Positions 5,829 through 13,653 of a DNA stretch of 41,541 nt are shown here, in pieces. Under the pieces are notes generated by a model. That model ran no database searches. It had not been told where the DNA came from and worked only from the letters and a program-made list of their open reading frames with translations. The number at the start of each line of letters is the position of its first letter. Positions within the stretch are counted from its first letter, which is position 1. Location: NCBI RefSeq assembly GCF_031082295.1, contig NZ_JAVHLD010000028.1, positions 1 to 41,541 of the forward strand, given 5' to 3'. A program made the position numbers and the translations under genes. This DNA is from Humidesulfovibrio sp. (GTDB taxonomy: Bacteria; Desulfobacterota; Desulfovibrionia; Desulfovibrionales; Desulfovibrionaceae).

Positions 5829-6569
5829 CTAAAAATACCCCAGGCTCTTCAGCGTCTCCAACTGCCGCTCCTTGTCCGGGTCGCGGCCCGCGCGCTCGCC
5901 CGAGTCCGCACCCGCAGGCTTCGTGCAGGGCACGCAGCCGAGCGACCGGTAGCCCTCCAGGTACAGCTCGCAGAACGGCAGCCCCTCCCCCGTGATGAAC
6001 GCCCAGATGTCCATTTCCGTCCAGTCCAGGATGGGGTTCACCTGCCAGTGCTCCGGGCAGCCGCCTGAGGCGGCCCGCAATTCTGCGTATTGCCGCGCCT
6101 GGCGCGAGGGGTGCTCGTCGCGCCGGATGCCCGTCAGCAGCGCCTGCGTGCCGGTGTCCGCCAGGGCTTGGCAGAGCGGGAGGATTTTGAGGTCGCGGCA
6201 GCAGGAGACCTTGTCCACGGCCACGGGGTAGGCCCCCAGGTCCACCCCGGACGGGCCGCCTTGGGGCCGGGCGATGGTCAGCTCAACGTTCCAGTCCGCG
6301 CAGAGTTTGTCGCGGAAGGCCATGACCTGCGGGAACTTGTGGCCTGTGTCGATGGATATGGCCCGCGGCGGGCCGCTTCCGGCCAGCGCCTCCTTCCATA
6401 GATACAGCGCCACCCCGGAGTCCTTGCCGCCGGTGTAGGCCACGGCGATCCGGGCCGGGTCGAGGCGCGGGGCCAGGGCGGCCAGGAGCTGGCGGCTGCG
6501 GGAGAGCTTGTCCGCCAGGGGCGCGGCGGGTGGCAGGGGGCAGTGGGCGTTCAGTTCGGCGAGGGGCAC
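5829..6569 (-). CDS. APS/PAPS-reductase-family PP-loop protein with Fe-S cysteines
   Basis: 246 residues from a GTG at 6567-6569, preceded by AGGAG. The longer open frame reaching 7100 overlaps the divergent gene and adds no family sequence. It has an N-type PP-loop YTGGKDS (45-51), RRDEHPSRQ (149-157, close to the CysD version), the WTEMDIWAFI segment (183-192), a CC pair (123-124) in a CCxxxKxxPL context and GCVPCT (211-216). The CC plus CxxC set is the [4Fe-4S] ligand pattern of assimilatory APS reductases. The C-terminal ECG(L/I)H active-site cysteine motif of that enzyme is absent: the protein ends about 30 residues after CxxC. Likely a cytosolic adenylyl-sulfate or other sulfur-chemistry enzyme of unknown reaction. 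Family is sure, function is not. Confidence 0.85.
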   Translation of the reverse strand: MPLAELNAHCPLPPAAPLADKLSRSRQLLAALAPRLDPARIAVAYTGGKDSGVALYLWKEALAGSGPPRAISIDTGHKFPQVMAFRDKLCADWNVELTIARPQGGPSGVDLGAYPVAVDKVSCCRDLKILPLCQALADTGTQALLTGIRRDEHPSRQARQYAELRAASGGCPEHWQVNPILDWTEMDIWAFITGEGLPFCELYLEGYRSLGCVPCTKPAGADSGERAGRDPDKERQLETLKSLGYF

Positions 6570-6596
6570 GGCGTCTCCTTGTGCGCAACGGGCGGC

Positions 6597-6626
6597 TTGC
6601 CGGGTCGGTCGGGAATCCGGTACAGT
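6597..6626 (+). promoter_or_regulatory. Possible sigma70-like promoter of the PNPOx-like gene
   Basis: TTGCCG (6597-6602), an 18-nt spacer and TACAGT (6621-6626) lie in the short gap between two divergent genes, 37 nt before the ATG at 6663. The match to consensus is moderate. Confidence 0.35.
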
Positions 6627-6662
6627 GGGCCGGACGCTGAACCCCGGAGGCTTAAAAAGCGC

Positions 6663-7166
6663 ATGCCCATGCTGAAGAATATCGCCGAACTTGTCCAGGC
6701 CCAGGGCCACCTTGTGCTGGCCACCTGCGCTCCTGGCGGCAGGGGCGGCCAGCCCCACGCCTCGCTCATGGCCTATTGCCCGTCGCCGGACGGGGGCGAG
6801 TTCTGGCTGGCGACGCTTAAGGAGACGCGGAAATACGCCAACCTGCGGGCCAACCCGCGCGCCAGCCTGCTGCTTGATGACAGGGTGGGCGACAGGGTGG
6901 GCGACAGGGGCGGCCAGGGGGGCGGGGCGCCCGGCCAGGCCCTGACCGTGGACGTGGAACTGGCTGCTTTCGCCGACGCGCAGGCCGAGGCCTCGGCGCG
7001 CCGGGCGCTGCTGGCGCGTCACCCGGAACTGGCGGATTTCATGGCGCTTCCGGGGGCCGTGGTGCTGCGCCTGGTGGGCTTGCGCTACCAGCTTCTGCAC
7101 GGCCTCACCGAGGTTTTCGTGTGGAGCCCGCAGAAAAACCTTGACGGCGCTGGTCGTACCGCTTAA
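6663..7166 (+). CDS. Pyridoxamine 5'-phosphate oxidase-like (split-barrel flavoprotein) protein
   Basis: 167 residues. Resembles small split-barrel FMN-binding proteins: an N-terminal LVLATCAPGGRGGQPHASLM strand pair (18-37), the FWLATLKETRKYANLRANPRASLLL segment that usually contacts the flavin phosphate, and a C-terminal region ending in a family-like strand. The ATG at 6663 is 12 nt after GGAGG (6646-6650); ATG 6669 is an alternative. A DRVGDRVGDRGG insert arises from a 12-nt tandem repeat between two barrel strands. Such proteins bind FMN, haem or F420, and the substrate is usually unknown. It is divergent from the APS-reductase-like gene and followed by tRNA-Arg. Confidence 0.82.
   Translation: MPMLKNIAELVQAQGHLVLATCAPGGRGGQPHASLMAYCPSPDGGEFWLATLKETRKYANLRANPRASLLLDDRVGDRVGDRGGQGGGAPGQALTVDVELAAFADAQAEASARRALLARHPELADFMALPGAVVLRLVGLRYQLLHGLTEVFVWSPQKNLDGAGRTA
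6879..6909 (+). repeat. 12-nt tandem repeat inside the PNPOx-like gene
   Basis: GACAGGGTGGGC occurs twice in tandem (6879-6890, 6891-6902), followed by a partial third copy (GACAGGG, 6903-6909). It encodes DRVG repeats and keeps the frame, so copy-number changes would lengthen a loop without a frameshift. Confidence 0.85.
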
Positions 7167-7183
7167 ATGTTCCTTCCTCGCGT

Positions 7184-7259
7184 GGGCTCGTAGCTCAGTG
7201 GATAGAGCGCCGGACTACGAATCCGTAGGTCGCAGGTTCAAATCCTGCCGGGCCCACCA
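7184..7259 (+). tRNA. tRNA-Arg (anticodon ACG)
   Basis: A 76-nt cloverleaf with an encoded CCA end. The acceptor stem pairs GGGCTCG with CGGGCCC, with one G-U pair. The D-stem is GCTC/GAGC, the anticodon loop is CTACGAA with U33 and anticodon ACG (A34, normally converted to inosine by TadA), and the T-arm is GCAGG-TTCAAAT-CCTGC. The outermost anticodon-stem pair (27-43) is a C-U mismatch. A rho-independent terminator follows at once. Confidence 0.97.
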
Positions 7260-7269
7260 CGCATGACCA

Positions 7270-7304
7270 AGGGGTTGCTGTCGAAAGACGCAGCCCCTTT
7301 TTTT
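7270..7304 (+). terminator. Rho-independent terminator after tRNA-Arg
   Basis: GGGGTTGC-T-GTC, a GAAA tetraloop and GAC-GCAGCCCC form a stem with one bulge and one G-U pair, followed by TTTTTTT. It lies about 12 nt after the tRNA CCA. Confidence 0.9.
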
Positions 7305-7408
7305 GCGCCGCGCTCCCAAAGGGCGGGGCCGAGGCGCGTGGGCATATGGCCCGCCTCTTGCGCCGCCCGCCGCTTCGGGTGTATGGCGGGACAAAGAGAG
7401 GTACCCTT

Positions 7409-7810
7409 ATGCGCCACCTGACCGCCCTTGCCATCGCGCTGTGCGTGCTCGCCAGTCCGGCCGTGTCCGCCGGGGAATCGTGGAAGCAGCTCTCCGGCGA
7501 CATGTTCATCGACACCAGCTCCATCGTCCGCAGCTTCAAGTCCGTGCACGCGGACGTGAAATACCTCTACGACAAGGCTGACGGCGCGCGCCTGCAGAAA
7601 ACCTTCAGGTCCAAGCTCATGCCGCAGCACTCGATCCAGCGGAAAAACTTCTACTGCAACAACCGGGAGGTCTCCACCTCCGCCTACAAGTATTTCGCGG
7701 CGGACGGCACGGTGCTGGCCACCGGGTCCATCAGCGAGCAGAAGAAGACGCCGGTGGTGCCGGAATCGCGCATCGAGGTCGTGTTCGACTACGTGTGCCA
7801 GCAGCGCTAG
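7409..7810 (+). CDS. Exported surface-adhesin protein E-like protein
   Basis: 133 residues. Residues 1-21 form a clear Sec signal peptide ending ASPAVSA, so the product is probably periplasmic or surface exposed. The rest resembles the adhesin-E-like domain: an initial W-x-Q-L then IDTSSI, a V-x-Y-L-Y-D strand, a CNNREVSTSAYKYFAADGTVL block, and a final SRIEVVFDYVC. The two cysteines, near the middle and at the C-terminus, could form a disulfide. The ATG at 7409 was chosen because it begins the signal peptide; the frame opens at 7346 with sequence that fits no family. In bacteria with such proteins they are often of unknown role. Function is not determined. Confidence 0.75.
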   Translation: MRHLTALAIALCVLASPAVSAGESWKQLSGDMFIDTSSIVRSFKSVHADVKYLYDKADGARLQKTFRSKLMPQHSIQRKNFYCNNREVSTSAYKYFAADGTVLATGSISEQKKTPVVPESRIEVVFDYVCQQR

Positions 7811-7861
7811 GGCATGAGCCTGCGCCTGGACATCCTGCCACGGCGCTGCTAGGGGGTGCGC

Positions 7862-8053
7862 ATGAAAACAATCACCGGCTCCCTGGTCCCCGGCAAGGGC
7901 GGCATGCTGCGCCCCATTTTCACCTGCGGCTGCAAGCAGGTCATGGAAGACTACACGATGGCCCCGGTGGTCGAGGTGACCTGCCCCAAATGCCAGGCCA
8001 CCAAGACCTTCCGCATCGCCGAGTTCGCCCCGAGGCAGTGGCGCATCAAATAG
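7862..8053 (+). CDS. Small zinc-ribbon-like protein
   Basis: 63 residues from ATG 7862, which sits 5 nt after AGGGGG; an in-frame GTG at 7856 is less well placed. The protein has CGC near residues 22-24 and CPKC near residues 39-42, a four-cysteine set typical of a small zinc ribbon, with a basic C-terminus (RQWRIK). I do not recognise a named family. It follows the adhesin-E-like gene by 51 bp on the same strand. It may bind nucleic acid or protein, but that is inference from the fold type only. Confidence 0.7.
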   Translation: MKTITGSLVPGKGGMLRPIFTCGCKQVMEDYTMAPVVEVTCPKCQATKTFRIAEFAPRQWRIK

Positions 8054-8188
8054 CCCCGCCGCTTTCCACTCTGTCCTGAAGCGCGTTCTGGCGCGCACGC
8101 CGTTCCCGGCCCGCCATGCGGAGCCGGGCTTTTGGCATTGGTGCGCGGCGGCAATCGTGGGGCTTGCGCTTCTGTTTGCGTTGTCGCT

Positions 8189-8217
8189 TGCTTCTGGCTG
8201 CAAACTTCTGGTATGCT
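8189..8217 (+). promoter_or_regulatory. Sigma70-like promoter of the hemerythrin gene
   Basis: TTGCTT (8189-8194), a 17-nt spacer and TATGCT (8212-8217). The predicted start near 8224 falls inside the palindrome at 8222-8242, about 46 nt before the ATG. Confidence 0.55.
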
Positions 8218-8221
8218 CATC

Positions 8222-8242
8222 CTGCCGGGCACTGCCCGGCAG
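8222..8242. promoter_or_regulatory. Perfect 10-bp palindrome at the hemerythrin promoter (operator-like)
   Basis: CTGCCGGGCA, a single C, then TGCCCGGCAG: perfect 10-bp arms around a one-base centre. It starts 4 nt after the -10 hexamer and so covers the predicted transcription start. There is no T-run after it, which argues against a terminator and for a dimeric regulator site. Confidence 0.55.
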
Positions 8243-8269
8243 ATGGCGCAACATCTCAAGGGAGGGACC

Positions 8270-8668
8270 ATGCCGCTTTTCGAATGGGACGGATCATTGG
8301 CTTTAGGGCATGAACTCATCGACGCACAGCACAAGAGCCTCGTCGAACTCGTTGACCAGTTGCACGGCGCCTGCCTCGACGGGGCTGAGGGCAGCGATCC
8401 CCGGTCCGTGCTGATGGCGCTCTACAAATACACCATGTTCCACTTCAGCGAGGAAGAGCGGCTCATGAAGCAGGCGAACTACGCGGAGTATGCCGAGCAC
8501 AAGGCGGAACACGACACGTTCGTGAGCAAGCTGGACGCTCTGGCCGTTCAGGCCAAGCAGGGCCGCGCCGACATCGGGCAGGAGACTCTCAAATGGCTTG
8601 TGGCCTGGCTGCTGAACCATATCTCTGTCGTGGACAAGCGGCTGGCGGCCTGTCTGCCCAAGGGGTGA
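8270..8668 (+). CDS. Bacteriohemerythrin
   Basis: 132 residues, a single hemerythrin domain with no fusion partner, so a cytosolic non-haem diiron O2-binding protein. All seven expected ligands are visible in the right order: H21 (DAQHK), H58 and E62 (HFSEE), H77 and H81 (HKAEH), H117 and D122 (HISVVD). The ATG at 8270 follows GGGAGGG; the frame is open upstream to 8132 but has no family sequence. In anaerobic sulfate reducers such proteins are thought to store, deliver or sense O2. The gene is monocistronic, with its own promoter and a palindrome at the start site, and ends at a bidirectional terminator. Confidence 0.97.
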   Translation: MPLFEWDGSLALGHELIDAQHKSLVELVDQLHGACLDGAEGSDPRSVLMALYKYTMFHFSEEERLMKQANYAEYAEHKAEHDTFVSKLDALAVQAKQGRADIGQETLKWLVAWLLNHISVVDKRLAACLPKG

Positions 8669-8691
8669 CCGGCCCCGCCGAGGCCACAAGG

Positions 8692-8724
8692 AAAGGGCTG
8701 CCGTCTTGCGATGGCAGCCCTTTT
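8692..8724. terminator. Bidirectional rho-independent terminator
   Basis: AAAGGGCTGCC (8692-8702) pairs with GGCAGCCCTTT (8713-8723) around a 10-nt loop, with T/A runs on both sides. It lies between the convergent hemerythrin and aminopeptidase genes and can serve both strands. Confidence 0.9.
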
Positions 8725-8749
8725 GCGTTGGCGTGTTAAGCCGCCCGGC

Positions 8750-9949
8750 TTACAGGTCGAACTCGCCGCTCTTGTAGATGACCTTCTTGCCGCCGCCGCC
8801 GAGCGTGGCGGTGACGGTCTTGTCCTCGGTGTTCACCAGGTCCCAGTGCAGGGCCGAATCGTTGAAGCCGAGCTGCTTCTTGAGGTCGGCGTCGAGCTTC
8901 GACTGGTCGCCGGAGTAGGTGTCGGAGTAGCTGGCGCCCACGGCCACGTGGCAGTTGCCGAAAGGCCCGCCGAAGTTCTCGTCGAAGAGCGTGTTGGCCA
9001 TGAAGGCGTCGATGCGCGAGTGGCGGCGGTCGGTGAGGGAGAACTCGCCCAGCTGGGCAGCGCCCTCGTCCATGGCCAGCTGCTTCTGCACGAACTCCTG
9101 GCCCTCCTTGGCGGTGACGGAGACCGCGCGGCCGGTCTTGAACTCCAGGCGCACGCCCTCCACCCGGTTGCCCGAGCGGTAGCTCGGCTGGTCGGCGAAG
9201 TACACGCCCTCGGTGCCGCGCCAGTCGGGCGAGAGGAAGATCTCGAAGCTCGGGATGTTGTGGCCCGACACGCCCAGCCAGCGGCGCGACTCGCCGGGGC
9301 ACACGGTGAGGTCGCAGTTGGCGGACTCCACGCGCAGGCTCTGGATGTTCAGCGCGGCCAGGGACTGCTTCACGCGCTGCACGTCGGCGAAGACCTCGCT
9401 CCACCGCGCGACCGGGTCGGCGTCGTCCAGGAAGCAGGCGCGCTTGATGACCCGGGCGTATTCCTCGACGCTGACGCCCGCGCACCGGGCCTGCTCCGGG
9501 GTGGGGAAGGCGCACAGCGTCCAGCCGAAGTCGCCCGTCTGCTCGCGGCCTTCCATGATCTCGCGCAGGAACTTGCGGGCCACGGCGGCCTGGCCGATCT
9601 TGGACGGGTCCGTGCCGGCCAGGTGCGTGAGCGAGGCCGGGGCGATGAGCGAGATGAGTCCCGAGAGGTTCTGCATCAGCTCACGGTCGCCGGGGGGCAC
9701 GGTCTTGATCTGCGCCTCGGAGCCTTTGCCGTAGAACGAGAGCTCCATGTTGCTGGTGAGGTTCTGGCGTACCACGGGCACCATGCCTTCCTCCATGAGC
9801 AGGTCGAACACGGCTTCGGCGAGCGGGGTGGCCAGCTGGTCGAAGCGCAGCAGGATGAGGTCGCCCGGCTTGTAGGGGCTGGTGCGGGCGGTGGTGAGGC
9901 CCCACCAGAGGGTGCGGGCGTATTTCTTGAGTTCGTCGGTGCTGAACAT
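8750..9949 (-). CDS. M29-family aminopeptidase (thermophilic/AmpS-type)
   Basis: 399 residues, normal for family M29 cytosolic dimetal aminopeptidases that remove N-terminal residues from peptides. The metal-ligand set can be placed by comparison with the Thermus enzyme: E236 (NIPSFEIF), E302 (LGEFSL), H334 (NCHVAVG), and H368 and D370 (LHWD). The ATG at 9947-9949 was chosen; the frame continues to 10069 but the extra sequence is Pro-rich and overlaps the promoter. The gene is monocistronic, has a good promoter at 10041-10069 on the minus strand, and ends at the shared terminator. The likely role is peptide turnover. Confidence 0.94.
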   Translation of the reverse strand: MFSTDELKKYARTLWWGLTTARTSPYKPGDLILLRFDQLATPLAEAVFDLLMEEGMVPVVRQNLTSNMELSFYGKGSEAQIKTVPPGDRELMQNLSGLISLIAPASLTHLAGTDPSKIGQAAVARKFLREIMEGREQTGDFGWTLCAFPTPEQARCAGVSVEEYARVIKRACFLDDADPVARWSEVFADVQRVKQSLAALNIQSLRVESANCDLTVCPGESRRWLGVSGHNIPSFEIFLSPDWRGTEGVYFADQPSYRSGNRVEGVRLEFKTGRAVSVTAKEGQEFVQKQLAMDEGAAQLGEFSLTDRRHSRIDAFMANTLFDENFGGPFGNCHVAVGASYSDTYSGDQSKLDADLKKQLGFNDSALHWDLVNTEDKTVTATLGGGGKKVIYKSGEFDL

Positions 9950-10040
9950 GGGGACTCTCTTTGGTGCGGAATTTCCGGGCTGGCGTTCCCCTGGGCCGAG
10001 GCGGAACCTGGGCGGAGGCGGGGCCGGAGCGGATGAACCC

Positions 10041-10069
10041 AGCATAGCCCATGCTTGCTGGAAGCTCAA
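10041..10069 (-). promoter_or_regulatory. Sigma70 promoter of the M29 aminopeptidase
   Basis: On the minus strand: TTGAGC (10064-10069), a 17-nt spacer and TATGCT (10041-10046). This gives a leader of about 85 nt. Together with the ferredoxin promoter it accounts for the 336-bp gap from 9950 to 10285, which otherwise holds only the ferredoxin leader. Confidence 0.6.
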
Positions 10070-10143: not shown

Positions 10144-10285
10144 CAACCCCGGAGCCTGTGCGCTCGGTTGCTTGCCTACATTGTGCGAGGAGAACGGCGC
10201 CTGGCCCTTCGGACCTCTTCCCAGTCGGGGAAAAGGCCGGAATGGGCTGACGATAAATCCTATTTTTACACACTTGGAGGGTACA

Positions 10286-10474
10286 ATGGGCTACAAGGTT
10301 ACTGTCGACAACGACAAGTGCATCGGCGACGGCGAGTGCGTGGACGTTTGCCCCGTCGAGGTCTACGAGCTGCAGGACGGCAAAGCCGTTCCCGTCAACA
10401 TGGAAGAGTGCCTGGGCTGCGAGTCCTGCGTTGAAGTTTGCGAGCAGGACGCCATCGTCATCGAAGAAGAATAG
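10286..10474 (+). CDS. 7Fe-type ferredoxin ([3Fe-4S]/[4Fe-4S], Desulfovibrio ferredoxin III-like)
   Basis: 62 residues, a small acidic cytosolic electron carrier. The second cluster motif is canonical: C42xxC45xxC48 with C52. The first motif is C12-xx-D15-xx-C18-xxx-C22P, so aspartate replaces the second cysteine, exactly the pattern of Desulfovibrio africanus ferredoxin III. There the site holds a [3Fe-4S] cluster that can take up a fourth metal. In the second motif the Pro that usually follows the last Cys is Glu (E53). The protein is acidic (EEE at the C-terminus), as expected for docking to oxidoreductases. The ATG follows GGAGG. The gene is monocistronic with a strong promoter and terminator, as expected for an abundant electron carrier; its partners are not in the window. 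Confidence 0.95.
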   Translation: MGYKVTVDNDKCIGDGECVDVCPVEVYELQDGKAVPVNMEECLGCESCVEVCEQDAIVIEEE

Positions 10475-10497: not shown

Positions 10498-10534
10498 GGG
10501 CGGGGGCGGCCACACGCCGCTCCCGTCCCTTTTT
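10498..10534 (+). terminator. Terminator of the ferredoxin gene
   Basis: GGGCGGGGGCGGC and GCCGCTCCCGTCCC form a very GC-rich hairpin with a CACAC loop, followed by TTTTT, 24 nt after the ferredoxin stop. Confidence 0.88.
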
Positions 10535-10613
10535 CGCACCGCACCACCTGCCCGCCCTTTACGGGGCCGAAGCCCTGGTGCAGCGCGCCCGCCTGCTGGT
10601 GGCGGCCCTGGCG

Positions 10614-10635
10614 CCGGGTGAACCCCGGTTTTTTT
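10614..10635 (+). terminator. Second terminator-like hairpin, with no known gene before it
   Basis: CCGGG (10614-10618), loop TGAAC, CCCGG (10624-10628), then seven T. It lies 80 nt after the ferredoxin terminator and 120 nt before the next gene, so it may end an unrecognised short transcript or be a backup terminator. The stretch 10535-10757 holds no supported gene. Confidence 0.6.
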
Positions 10636-10757: not shown

Positions 10758-11741
10758 ATGGCCTTTGACTTCAGCGAATTTTTCACAAAATACGAATCCA
10801 TCATCTCCGAGGCCGACCAGGTCTTCAACACCGTGCGCGCGCGTTTCTCCGAGAATGTGCGCTGCGAAAAGGGCTGCTCCGACTGCTGCCACGCCCTGTT
10901 CGACCTGACCCTGGTGGAGGCCATGCGCGTCAACGCCGCCTTCAACGCCCGCTTCAAGGGCAGGGACCGCACCAGGATCCTCAAGCGCGCCGACGATGCC
11001 GACAGGCTGGTGCATCGCCTCAAGCGCGACGCCTTCAAGGCCGTTAAGGATGGGCAGAACGCCCAGGAGATTCTGCTGGAGATGGCCAAGGTGCGCGTGC
11101 GCTGCCCGCTTCTGGACGACGACGGCCTGTGCGAGATGTACGACGTGCGGCCCGTCACCTGCCGCATCTACGGCGTGCCCACGGCCATCGGCGGGGAGGC
11201 CCACACCTGCGGCAAGTCCGCCTTCGAGAAGGGCAAGCCCTATCCCACGGTCTACCTGGACCGCATCCAGGACCGCCTCTACGCCCTGAGCCACGAGATG
11301 GCCTCAAGCATCCCCACGCGCTTCAAGGGCCTGGGCGAGGTGCTGGTGCCGCTCTCCCTGGCGCTGTTGACCGAGTATACCGAGGACTACCTGGGCATAA
11401 AGAAGCCCAAGGAAGAGGCCAAGGCCGCCCCGGCCGGGAAATCCGCCGGCATGGCCGCCAGACTCGCGGCAGGCAAGGCCAAGGGCAAGGGCCTGGCCGA
11501 GTGCTCCGGCTGCTCGCCCGAGACCAAGCAGGGCGGCTGCTCCGGCTGCGCGCCCAAGAGCTTCACCATCGGCCAGGCGCCCGAGCGCCCTGCCAGGAAG
11601 CCCGCCGCCAAGAAGCCCGCAGCCGCCAAGAAACCCGCCGCGACAAAGGCCGCAGCCGGCGAAACGGCCAAGCCCGCCGCGAAGCCCGCCGCCGCCAAGA
11701 AGCCTGCGGCCAAGAAAACGGCCAAGCCGTCCAAGGACTAG
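10758..11741 (+). CDS. YkgJ-family cysteine-cluster protein with histone-H1-like tail
   Basis: 327 residues. The N-terminal 210 residues match the YkgJ-type (PF03692-like) Fe/Zn-binding cysteine-cluster family: C36xxxC40xxCC44, then C116P, C125, the RPVTCRIYG segment with C135, and C151. Residues 249-264 add a separate CSGC-x8-CSGC motif, and residues 276-327 form a Lys/Ala/Pro-rich tail (KPAAKKPAAAKK type) like histone H1, which suggests nucleic-acid or polyanion binding. The ATG at 10758 follows GAGGAG. It is the first gene of a tight four-gene operon, and the next start is 3 nt after its stop. The YkgJ part is sure. The biochemical role of the family is unclear, and a metal cluster is inference from the cysteine pattern. 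Confidence 0.85.
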   Translation: MAFDFSEFFTKYESIISEADQVFNTVRARFSENVRCEKGCSDCCHALFDLTLVEAMRVNAAFNARFKGRDRTRILKRADDADRLVHRLKRDAFKAVKDGQNAQEILLEMAKVRVRCPLLDDDGLCEMYDVRPVTCRIYGVPTAIGGEAHTCGKSAFEKGKPYPTVYLDRIQDRLYALSHEMASSIPTRFKGLGEVLVPLSLALLTEYTEDYLGIKKPKEEAKAAPAGKSAGMAARLAAGKAKGKGLAECSGCSPETKQGGCSGCAPKSFTIGQAPERPARKPAAKKPAAAKKPAATKAAAGETAKPAAKPAAAKKPAAKKTAKPSKD

Positions 11742-11744
11742 TCA

Positions 11745-12125
11745 ATGGAGCAGATGTACACCCCGGCCCAGGTCGAGGAGCAGAAGAAGGCCATGTACGA
11801 GCGCATGACGCCCCGGCGTCGGCGCTTCGTGGACCGCATCGGCTACGAGAACTGGGACCCCTTCCAGGCCCCGTTCGATCCCATCGACATCCGCACAGAC
11901 GCCATGGGCTTTACCTCCCATGACCTTTTGAACAAGTATTTCAAGACGCTGCCGAGCATTCCGGACCCGGACTACATGCAGACCCTGTCCGAATTCATGG
12001 TCATGCTGGTCATGAACATCGAGAAGGTCCGGCCCATCCTGGAGTTCAGCGACTGGTACAACAGCATGCTGAGAGAGCGCGGCATATCCTTAACCAACAG
12101 CGCCCAGGCGCAGTCCGGAGAATAA
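11745..12125 (+). CDS. Conserved hypothetical protein (126 aa) of the YkgJ/TPR/HEAT operon
   Basis: 126 residues with no family I recognise. It starts at ATG 11745, 3 nt after the YkgJ stop, and ends 4 nt before the TPR gene, so it is almost certainly co-translated with them. The sequence is soluble-looking. An N-terminal amphipathic helix (about 6-32) runs into MTPRRRRFVDRIGYENWDPFQ, a Pro/Asp-rich linker, then two helices. The middle has PDPDYMQTLSEFMVMLVMNIEKVRP, a hydrophobic helix that could form a dimer or bind a partner. No cysteines are present, so it does not share the metal-site chemistry of its neighbour. Codon use matches its neighbours. It is likely a lineage-specific partner of the YkgJ protein. 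Confidence 0.8.
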   Translation: MEQMYTPAQVEEQKKAMYERMTPRRRRFVDRIGYENWDPFQAPFDPIDIRTDAMGFTSHDLLNKYFKTLPSIPDPDYMQTLSEFMVMLVMNIEKVRPILEFSDWYNSMLRERGISLTNSAQAQSGE

Positions 12126-12129
12126 AGCC

Positions 12130-12762
12130 ATGAGCGAAGAGAAGAAGTTCAACAACGTCGACGAGTACATTGCCGACCTGAAGCAGAAGCTGGTCAGCGC
12201 CCCGGAGTGCGGCAACACCCACTACAACCTCGGCGTGGCCTATCTGTCCAAGCGCGAGTACATGGACGCCGAGCACTGCTTCCGCGAGGCCATGGCCAAC
12301 TCGCCCAAGATGGCCGAGGCCTATGTGCAGATGGGAGGCATCTGCCTGGAGCGCGGCGACCTGGAAGGCTGCCTGAACTTCAACCGCATCGCCACCCAGC
12401 AGCGCCCGTTCTTCGCGGTGCCCTGGGGCAACATCGGCTTCGTGCTCATGCAGCTGGGCGACTCCGAGAAGGCCATCCCGGCCCTGCAGAAGGCCATCAA
12501 GTATGATCCGGGCTTCGTGCAGGCCCTGGCCACCCTGGGCAGCGCCTTCTTCTCGCGCGGTCAGCTCGACGACGCCCTCGCCAACCTCAAGAAGGCCGTG
12601 GAGCTGCAGCCCATGTTCGGTCCGGCCTGGAACAACCTGGCCCTGGTGCAGGCCGAGATGGGCGATTGGGCCGCCGCGGCCGCATCCGTGAAGAAGGCCC
12701 AGGACACCGGCTACGAAGTGCCCCAGGCCTTCCTGGACGAGATCGCCCAGAACAACAAGTAG
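12130..12762 (+). CDS. Tetratricopeptide-repeat protein
   Basis: 210 residues made almost entirely of TPR units. About five 34-residue repeats run from near residue 25 to 200, with the consensus small and aromatic positions (for example HYNLGVAYLSKREYMDAEHCFREAM and AWNNLALVQAEMGDWAAAAASVKKA). No signal peptide or membrane segment, so it is a cytosolic protein-binding scaffold. It sits 4 nt after the 126-residue orphan and 18 nt before the HEAT-like gene. TPR proteins have no catalytic role of their own; the most likely function is to assemble the other operon products. Confidence 0.92.
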   Translation: MSEEKKFNNVDEYIADLKQKLVSAPECGNTHYNLGVAYLSKREYMDAEHCFREAMANSPKMAEAYVQMGGICLERGDLEGCLNFNRIATQQRPFFAVPWGNIGFVLMQLGDSEKAIPALQKAIKYDPGFVQALATLGSAFFSRGQLDDALANLKKAVELQPMFGPAWNNLALVQAEMGDWAAAAASVKKAQDTGYEVPQAFLDEIAQNNK

Positions 12763-12780
12763 GCCGGACCGGAGGGGGAC

Positions 12781-13509
12781 ATGCCCCGCTACCGCGACCT
12801 CAAGCGCGACCTGCGCGACCTCCTGGCCGATGACGGCTGGGCCGCGCGGTTGCGGGAACTCGACGCCGTTCCGGCGCGCCGTCTCATCGGCCCGCTGTTC
12901 TCCCTCTTGCTCGACAAGTCCGAGGCCGTGCGCTGGCGCGCGGTCTCGGCTTTTGGGCGCACCGTGGCCCGCATGGCCGACGGCCAAGAGCCCGGCGAGG
13001 GCCTGGAGGCCGCCCGGGTGGTGCTGCGCCAGTGCCTTTGGCGGCTGAACGAGGAGTCCGGAGGCGTGGGCTGGGGCGTGCCGGAGGCCCTGGGCGAGAC
13101 GCTTTTTCAGCACCGGCGGCTGGCCACCGAGTTCCACCGCGTGCTGGCCTCCTATGTGCGCGAGGAGCAGCACGGCGAGGGCAACAGCCTGGACCATGTG
13201 CCCCTGCGCCGGGGCGTGTATTGGGCGCTTGGGCGGCTGGCCCAGGCCCACCCGGACCTGCTGGCCAATGAGGTCTCGACCTTGCTGGCCGGGCTGGCCG
13301 AGGACGACGGGGCCTGCCGGGGGCTGGCGGCCTGGGCGCTGGGCATCCTGGGAAGCAAGGGCGGCGCCGGGGTCGGGCAAGCGGTGGCGGCGCTCGCCGC
13401 GCTTGAGTCCGACGCCACGGAGATCGTGCTCTTCCACGACGGGGGCTTGCGCCACGCCACTGCCGGGGCCCTGGCGAGCGAGGCCCTGCAAGGCCTGCCC
13501 GGCATTTGA
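12781..13509 (+). CDS. HEAT-like repeat protein
   Basis: 242 residues, mostly paired helices with conserved Arg/Ala/Gly at HEAT-repeat positions (VRWRAVSAFGRTVARMAD near 54-71; RRGVYWALGRLAQAHPDLL near 143-161; GLAAWALGILGSK near 181-193). A GGVGWGVPEALGE segment near the centre is distinctive. No signal peptide, so it is cytosolic. The ATG at 12781 follows GGAGG. It is the last gene of the four-gene operon; a strong promoter for tRNA-Val lies 20 nt after its stop. HEAT repeats bind proteins or guide enzyme assembly; the phycobilin-lyase-like repeats are one related class. The specific function is unknown. Confidence 0.82.
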   Translation: MPRYRDLKRDLRDLLADDGWAARLRELDAVPARRLIGPLFSLLLDKSEAVRWRAVSAFGRTVARMADGQEPGEGLEAARVVLRQCLWRLNEESGGVGWGVPEALGETLFQHRRLATEFHRVLASYVREEQHGEGNSLDHVPLRRGVYWALGRLAQAHPDLLANEVSTLLAGLAEDDGACRGLAAWALGILGSKGGAGVGQAVAALAALESDATEIVLFHDGGLRHATAGALASEALQGLPGI

Positions 13510-13576: not shown

Positions 13577-13653
13577 AGGCGCGTAGCTCAGTTGGTTAGA
13601 GCACTTGCTCGACACGCAAGGGGTCAGGAGTTCAAGTCTCCTCGTGCCTACCA
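13577..13653 (+). tRNA. tRNA-Val (anticodon GAC), with C33 in place of U33
   Basis: A 77-nt cloverleaf with encoded CCA. The acceptor stem is AGGCGCG/CGTGCCT, the D-stem GCTC/GAGC, the anticodon stem CTTGC/GCAAG, the T-arm AGGAG-TTCAAGT-CTCCT. The anticodon loop reads TCGACAC. Anticodon GAC is at 34-36, but position 33 is C, where U is nearly universal. Valine identity fits A35 and C36, and the short variable loop excludes serine. Transcribed from the promoter at 13529-13557. Confidence 0.93.

Follow-up and report, generated by a model that had tools for sequence, protein, structure and literature searches.

A ferredoxin–YkgJ–orphan–TPR gene block of Humidesulfovibrio as an accessory module of the dsr cluster

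The DNA analysed here is a stretch of 41,541 nucleotides from Humidesulfovibrio sp. (contig NZ_JAVHLD010000028.1), referred to below as the window. It carries a compact set of genes for a ferredoxin (fdx), a cysteine-rich protein of the YkgJ family (ykgJ), a small orphan protein, a tetratricopeptide repeat (TPR) protein and a HEAT repeat protein. The genes, and the hairpin that lies among them, are as follows.

10286–10474, plus strand: ferredoxin gene, 62 amino acids, two clusters; opens the conserved block
10498–10528, plus strand: terminator-like hairpin between fdx and ykgJ, weak (7 sites in the scanned region against 3.9 expected)
10758–11741, plus strand: YkgJ-family gene, 327 amino acids
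11745–12125, plus strand: orphan gene, 126 amino acids
12130–12762, plus strand: TPR gene, 210 amino acids
12781–13509, plus strand: HEAT gene, 242 amino acids, an optional member of the block

The last four genes had been described in a first-pass annotation of this DNA as a tight operon. The coordinates of the open reading frames (ORFs) agree with that description, since all four are on the plus strand and are separated by 3, 4 and 18 nt; gaps of this length suggest that the four may be co-translated. The proposed start of the operon had to be revised, however, because conservation extends one gene further upstream, to the ferredoxin. By comparative genomics, the ferredoxin gene together with the ykgJ, orphan, TPR and HEAT genes is an accessory module of the dsr cluster, and the module was rarely seen in the examined genomes that lack dissimilatory sulfite reductase.

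Conservation of the gene block

Relatives of the orphan were found in 54 of the 59 genomes nearest to the window, and in 46 of 47 when the count was restricted to genomes with a completeness of 90% or more and a contamination of 5% or less. At 29 loci from relatives (L009–L037), the YkgJ, orphan and TPR genes occurred together without exception, and a ferredoxin match was present at 28. A scan of named genomes, in which 80 of 244 relatives were kept and some loci end at contig ends, gave the order fdx-ykgJ-orphan-TPR on one strand at 77 of the 80 loci, with the ferredoxin gene preceding ykgJ at 78. Humidesulfovibrio and Desulfocurvus are among the genera of the closest named relatives. The arrangement is not a chance one: different families of the order share it.

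The HEAT gene behaves differently. It follows the other four genes at 28 of the 80 named loci and was not seen beside the block at the remaining 52, some of which end at contig ends. Gene order therefore identifies fdx-ykgJ-orphan-TPR as the core unit and the HEAT gene as an optional addition, and the HEAT protein was rejected as an obligate fourth partner for the same reason. The first-pass annotation had held that finding its four genes apart in relatives would speak against the operon; ykgJ, orphan and TPR do stay together, and the HEAT gene, often not seen beside them, speaks in part against the operon as first described.

Occurrence and linkage with dsrA

DsrAB, which makes hydrogen sulfide, is central to sulfate respiration, one of the main routes by which sulfide arises in anoxic sediments and guts. 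In a sample of 297 Desulfobacterota genomes, dsrA was counted in 144 (143 over the cut-off, and G292 on partial hits). It was present in all 46 genomes with the orphan, in 66 of the 67 with the YkgJ subfamily, in 110 of the 111 with the stand-alone TPR protein and in 122 of the 127 with the HEAT family. The comparison of the operon with the genes of dissimilatory sulfate reduction, which the first-pass annotation had proposed, was strongly positive. The limits of the families were set as follows. For YkgJ, 67 of 82 genomes were kept at E ≤ 3.1e-48, the 15 dropped ones having E values of 2e-30 to 7e-21; with these included, dsrA was present in 71 of 82. For the orphan, 46 of 47 genomes were kept and a fragment from G098, which has dsrA, was left out. 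For the TPR protein, 111 of 116 genomes were kept after frames of at least 354 amino acids had been left out, and dsrA was present in 112 of 116 when they were included. The HEAT genome list comprises 127 entries, and the automatic count over the cut-off was 126.

The genome that has YkgJ, TPR and HEAT without dsrA is G099, which is 67% complete. The other exceptions for HEAT are G135, G170 and G221, which are 62–76% complete, and G114, recorded as complete and 6% contaminated. Matches to aprA were over the cut-off in G099 and G135 and strong but partial in G221; therefore, the missing dsrA in these three genomes may be an assembly gap. No aprA match over the cut-off was found in G170 or G114. 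Among a second set of 25 orphan-positive Desulfovibrionales, dsrA was over the cut-off in 24. A fully complete genome from the window's family (G015, 100%) lacks the orphan, dsrA, YkgJ and aprA, so that the losses agree. In G020, dsrA and the orphan are present with no aprA match, pointing to DsrAB rather than Apr as the partner of the module. Binomial and Fisher values ignore shared ancestry; therefore, weight was placed on repeated linkages with differing gene orders.

Such linkages were found in many lineages. Within 10 kb of dsrA, the 297-genome sample has the TPR gene in 70 of 111 genomes, ykgJ in 25 of 67 and the orphan in 16 of 46, and the orphan lies within this distance in 13 of the 25 orphan-positive Desulfovibrionales. 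Linkage of the orphan or YkgJ to dsrA spans 16 family codes (counted by eye), with differing gene orders. Eighteen stretches were fetched as a non-random sample, 13 picked for hits near dsrA and five for contrast, and nine of them carry dsrMKJOP-fdx-ykgJ-orphan-TPR-dsrABDN on a single strand. Two others (L184 and L192) have dsrMKJOP-fdx-ykgJ-orphan-TPR-HEAT followed by a convergent dsrNDBA. At L183 and L189, fdx-ykgJ-orphan-TPR-HEAT is followed by dsrABDN on the same strand, which is the gene order of the window placed ahead of dsrA; the spacing between HEAT and dsrA is 402 nt at L189 and 1.46 kb, with two small frames, at L183. In the window genome itself, the operon is on contig C20 and dsrA on contig C71, so that the module is separate from dsr. 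dsrA is present at seven of the 80 named loci, including records of Desulfomicrobium, Desulfoplanes, Desulfonatronovibrio and Desulfohalobiaceae.

Distant families retain the association in other arrangements. The orphan and TPR genes directly precede dsrA at L074–L077 and L085, where dsrM–K are farther away, beyond dsrN. At L083, one strand carries ykgJ-orphan-(PrmA)-TPR-(404-aa ORF)-dsrABDN, and at L087 ykgJ-orphan adjoins dsrMKJOP, with no dsrA within the 16 kb examined. Six further distant loci (L049–L054) lie beside dsrA, dsrB and dsrD. All six encode a longer HEAT paralogue along with the TPR protein, five have the YkgJ subfamily (not L054) and four a ferredoxin (L049, L051, L053 and L054). 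dsrN is beside the module genes at five of the six and was not in the stretch examined of L050. Models built from Desulfovibrionales alone matched these loci with E values of 1e-38 to 6e-57 for TPR, 1e-46 to 1e-64 for YkgJ, 9e-17 to 3e-29 for HEAT and 5e-23 to 4e-29 for ferredoxin. Searches with HEAT and with dsrA drew responses from largely the same genomes, and many of them have the longer HEAT paralogue at a distance of a few kb from dsrA. A 107-amino-acid protein of the DUF6955 family is encoded between the ferredoxin and the orphan ahead of dsrA at L075 (7343–7663); L074, L076 and L077 have a protein at the same place, matched by position and length alone.

The encoded proteins and their surroundings

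The window YkgJ protein matches PF03692 with 30.1 bits (cut-off 23). It shares with that family the CxxxCxxCC cluster and further conserved cysteines; eight cysteines, namely those of the cluster and Cys116, Cys125, Cys135 and Cys151, are invariant in 23 aligned sequences. A model built solely from dsr-linked loci of other orders gave it 243.5 bits, and the six other YkgJ-type proteins of the same genome scored at most 31.5 bits or nothing with such a model; these dsr-only models were scored on the window and on selected loci. By its sequence, the window protein is therefore set apart from the wider family as a member of a distinct Dsr-linked subfamily. The structure model is confident (predicted local distance difference test, pLDDT, 90.5). 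A limited second look at fold comparison gave a best Z of 2.0 with no close solved fold, and a profile search of the PDB gave no match below E 0.35. A second, different YkgJ-type protein adjoins dsrA in the window genome (L048:7241–7996, on C71) and in the distant genome G347 (L050:8713–9375). These two match PF03692 with 27.3 and 41.3 bits, respectively, and are outside the subfamily of the module.

The C-terminal tail of the window protein has two further features.

11502–11549, plus strand: CSGC-x8-CSGC, residues 249–264 of the YkgJ protein, within its Lys/Ala/Pro-rich tail
11559–11573, plus strand: SFTIG peptide, in the YkgJ tail after the cysteine pairs

The motif and the tail, both pointed out in the first-pass annotation, are indeed present in the window; they are not conserved. 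Of 125 YkgJ loci, 53 have a CxxC..CxxC pair (40 of 104 distinct sequences); a Lys/Ala/Pro-rich tail is found at 23. Short hydrophobic-Gly peptides akin to SFTIG were found at 53 of the 125 loci (39 of 104 distinct sequences) with a loose pattern. The cysteine pair and tail were ruled out as a functional core, as these features vary among the YkgJ relatives. The CSGC motif and the tail resembling histone H1, which is kept in 21 of the 104 distinct sequences, are, on this comparison, lineage decorations added locally.

At E ≤ 1, the orphan matches neither a Pfam nor an NCBIfam family, which bears out the earlier statement that one of the proteins has no known family. The window orphan scored 80 bits with a model from dsr-linked loci of other orders. 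Its structure model is all-helical (pLDDT 85.7; predicted template modelling score, pTM, 0.52). Residues 41–50 lie within a strongly conserved segment, WDPFQxPxDPIDIR, and have a block mean pLDDT of 67; conservation combined with low model confidence would be expected if this segment became ordered upon binding a partner. A second look at fold comparison against 57 chains gave a best Z of 2.7, to unrelated chains, and a profile search of the PDB returned weak matches only (SIR1, E 0.017). The identification of the orphan as DsrT was dropped, as a protein with an RsbRD_N domain, and not the orphan, is directly before dsrM at L075; we infer that this RsbRD_N protein is DsrT.

The repeats of the other two proteins were recognized correctly at the outset. 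The window TPR protein matches TPR_1 in four stretches with 104.8 bits (cut-off 27.8) and scored 221 bits with a model from dsr-linked TPR proteins alone; judged by these scores, it is a member of a Dsr-linked subfamily. The HEAT repeats of the last protein were also found by Pfam. It had been described by its repeats, and it is a clear member of a named NCBIfam family, DVU0298 (NF045662; 225.1 bits, cut-off 75), the name of which conveys no function. Structure matches of the HEAT protein were mostly designed repeat proteins. The family was found in none of 14 named control genomes outside Desulfobacterota, and the neighbours of the single-domain HEAT gene at 13 loci included no family recurring at more than four. 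The longer paralogue in the dsr loci of other families has an N-terminal CPFC..CxCG segment. At L050, the HEAT protein (6413–8149, 578 amino acids) has this segment and a fused C-terminal TPR part, which matches a separate TPR protein encoded beside HEAT at L051 (44% identity) and L054 (25%). The fusion suggests that HEAT and this TPR part, which is distinct from the main TPR protein of the module, work together. Table 2 of a published paper (PMC2901600), the one literature hit for DVU0298, lists it as a CO-dehydrogenase gene, unlike the HEAT family of that name; the entry is probably a mistyped locus tag.

The ferredoxin has a first motif of C-x2-D-x2-C-x3-C-P and a second of C-x2-C-x2-C-x3-C. 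On a longer frame (10172–10471), Fer4 (PF00037) matched in two stretches with 51.7 bits (cut-off 21.1), and the protein is predicted from these domains to be of the two-[4Fe-4S] type. Its structure matches were other ferredoxins. The hairpin at 10498–10528 weakly suggests that fdx has its own transcript in the window. A second terminator-like hairpin lies in the same fdx–ykgJ interval (10613–10629).

In the window, a tRNA-Val gene (13577–13653) lies downstream of the HEAT gene. Upstream, the M29 peptidase gene (8750–10069, minus strand) precedes the ferredoxin gene, and genes for a hemerythrin (8132–8668) and an Adhesin_E protein (7346–7810) are also found; one frame in the stretch 5829–10069 resembles, by eye, a protein of the PAPS-reductase type.

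Possible role and comparison with known Dsr systems

To our knowledge, two questions about DsrAB are unanswered: how sulfate reducers build its siroheme-[4Fe-4S] sites, and where its electrons come from if DsrL is absent. The proteins of the module most likely form a complex dedicated to DsrAB that serves its assembly, its electron supply or both. In this complex, the DsrA and DsrB subunits would be held by the two solenoid proteins, TPR and HEAT, and the small helical orphan would serve as an adaptor specific to DsrAB, using its conserved WDPF..DPIDIR stretch. Iron or a Fe-S cluster may be bound or passed on by the YkgJ protein with its eight invariant cysteines, and electrons for inserting the cluster or siroheme would come from the ferredoxin. 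Such a complex might mature DsrAB only, or might also remain bound as its electron-supply partner. DsrN, a neighbour of the module in relatives, amidates siroheme. We favour assembly because the module combines solenoids, a cysteine-rich protein, a ferredoxin and a candidate helical adaptor, and because dsrN is next door in relatives. The first-pass annotation had suggested a multi-protein assembly, perhaps one that matures an oxidoreductase; as regards the target, the comparison bears this out, dissimilatory sulfite reductase being the enzyme that the module tracks and neighbours, and such an assembly may act in maturation, in electron supply or as a scaffold. That the module encodes a cytoplasmic complex for making DsrAB or keeping it active is the likeliest of the explanations weighed here, and we put it at slightly less than an even chance.

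The nearest competitor is that the ferredoxin serves as physiological electron donor to DsrAB and is docked to it by the YkgJ, orphan, TPR and HEAT proteins, in place of DsrL, the partner of DsrAB in other organisms. The nearly constant position of fdx ahead of ykgJ and its presence in the dsr cluster of distant families agree with such an electron-supply complex. A small ferredoxin, however, normally needs no scaffold proteins, and in the window a terminator-like hairpin parts fdx from ykgJ. DsrL is apparently absent from Desulfovibrio, a genus named in a passage on organisms without DsrL, and the reductive DsrAB–DsrL-2 complexes are said there to need NADPH (PMC7596348); DsrL was not searched for in the present genomes, which limits the argument for its replacement. 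We regard this explanation as unlikely, although it ranks directly after assembly. A machine of sulfate reducers in which the helical adaptor, the cysteine-cluster protein and the two solenoid scaffolds load the cofactors of DsrAB and then dock a dedicated ferredoxin as electron donor, replacing DsrL, would combine the two and is likewise doubtful; if it exists, supplying the module would let a foreign host make active DsrAB.

Two further explanations are improbable, and we rank them in the order given. The TPR and HEAT proteins might form a structural metabolon or regulator that clusters or tunes DsrAB, DsrC, DsrD and other enzymes of the pathway and has no part in maturation. Two protein-binding solenoids, one of them fused to additional TPR repeats at L050, and the tight co-occurrence with dsrA would fit; the invariant YkgJ cysteines and the ferredoxin would be left unexplained. 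Alternatively, the module might assemble or regulate the membrane complex DsrMKJOP, or DsrC, and not DsrAB. It stands between dsrMKJOP and dsrAB in many Desulfovibrionales, and L087 has ykgJ-orphan next to dsrMKJOP, with dsrA nowhere in the stretch examined. Against this, the module genes flank dsrAB and dsrN at L049 and L051–L054, where no dsrM–P hit was found in the stretch examined, and the order of L074–L077 and L085 places orphan-TPR next to dsrA and dsrM–K on the far side of dsrN. Least probable by far is that housekeeping genes came to lie near dsr by chance in one lineage. The separate contigs in the window genome, the lack of dsrA in the examined stretch of 73 of the 80 named loci and the retention of the block without dsrA in G025 would all be explained by it. 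The linkages in 16 family codes with differing gene orders are difficult to reconcile with it, and so is the presence of the module, which follows dsrA genome by genome, down to G015 with its loss of both.

Several observations weigh against the favoured complex for making DsrAB or keeping it active. At the thresholds used, 78 of the 144 dsrA genomes lack YkgJ, 98 the orphan, 34 the TPR protein and 22 HEAT. G020 has dsrA and the orphan with no YkgJ match. G025, which is 98% complete, keeps ykgJ-orphan-TPR (L176) with no dsrA over the cut-off and a weak aprA match below it; the block could be a relic, have another function or reflect an assembly gap. G006, of the same genus and 84% complete, has pieces of dsrA and no orphan or YkgJ match. 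Structure and PDB profile searches gave no solved relative that reveals a function. Moreover, the module is not needed for every DsrAB, as judged from genome content, because a separate part of the DsrA tree, also with dsrN, is largely without it.

Eighteen of the 22 HEAT-less dsrA genomes also lack the stand-alone TPR protein, the orphan and YkgJ. In a midpoint-rooted tree of 60 DsrA sequences, from which no support values were read out, the module-less genomes share one part with three HEAT-only genomes and with two (G138 and G234) whose TPR hits are on contigs other than that of dsrA. Of the 12 module-less tips, one falls outside that part, namely G256 (88% complete, 8% contamination); all other tips outside it are genomes with at least one module gene. 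The module therefore characterizes one part of this tree. In the HEAT-less loci, dsrN is accompanied by DsrC- and DsrM/K-like genes. DsrD was absent from 11 and weak in seven of the 22 HEAT-less dsrA genomes; among 53 HEAT-positive genomes it was present in 50 (weakly in G073 and G110) and absent from three. The idea that the HEAT-less genomes are of the oxidative type was dropped, as canonical DsrE was over the cut-off in none of 75 genomes. The DsrA branch of G064, G101 and G271 (L209, L210 and L211), which have the HEAT family and no match to TPR, the YkgJ subfamily or the orphan, adjoins the module-less group, and a ferredoxin gene is next to dsrN at L209 and L210. At the module-less loci L206, L204 and L195, genes for a small DsrC-like protein and for DsrM/K-like proteins come after dsrA-dsrB-dsrN (DsrC and DsrM assigned by eye).

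A compact gene set of this kind offers candidates for the assembly of the DsrAB cofactors and for its electron donor, and may be a recipe for recombinant DsrAB. Its genes also provide additional markers by which one part of the DsrA tree can be recognized in genomes, and one member belongs to a family that has no Pfam or NCBIfam entry and accompanies dsrA in all 46 genomes of the 297-genome sample where it occurs. We found no description of the module in the open-licence literature consulted, PMC13293266 and PMC8528874 included; papers beyond this literature may already mention its members as hypothetical neighbours of dsr. In the main text of a transposon sequencing (Tn-seq) paper on D. vulgaris, neither "tetratricopeptide" nor "TPR" was found among the 12 of 25 places listed (PMC10102598).

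Among known systems, dedicated redox-enzyme chaperones such as NarJ and TorD are small all-helical proteins encoded with one respiratory enzyme. The orphan would be alike by role only; no useful sequence or fold match was found for it (the best Z among the 57 chains being that given above). DsrL, the NAD(P)H:acceptor oxidoreductase of DsrAB, is a candidate functional counterpart as an electron partner of DsrAB; however, Pfam identified no flavoprotein among the module genes. A 2026 paper on cable bacteria lists DsrABC, D, N, TMKJ, OP homologues, Qmo, Apr and Sat as Dsr components, and ykgJ, the orphan, TPR and HEAT are not in that list (PMC13047784). At the dsr loci studied here, dsrD is a gene distinct from those of the module. 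Close parallels are dsrD, dsrN and dsrT, which lie, as the module does, with dsrAB or dsrMKJOP in organisms of the reductive type, and whose soluble products serve the pathway.

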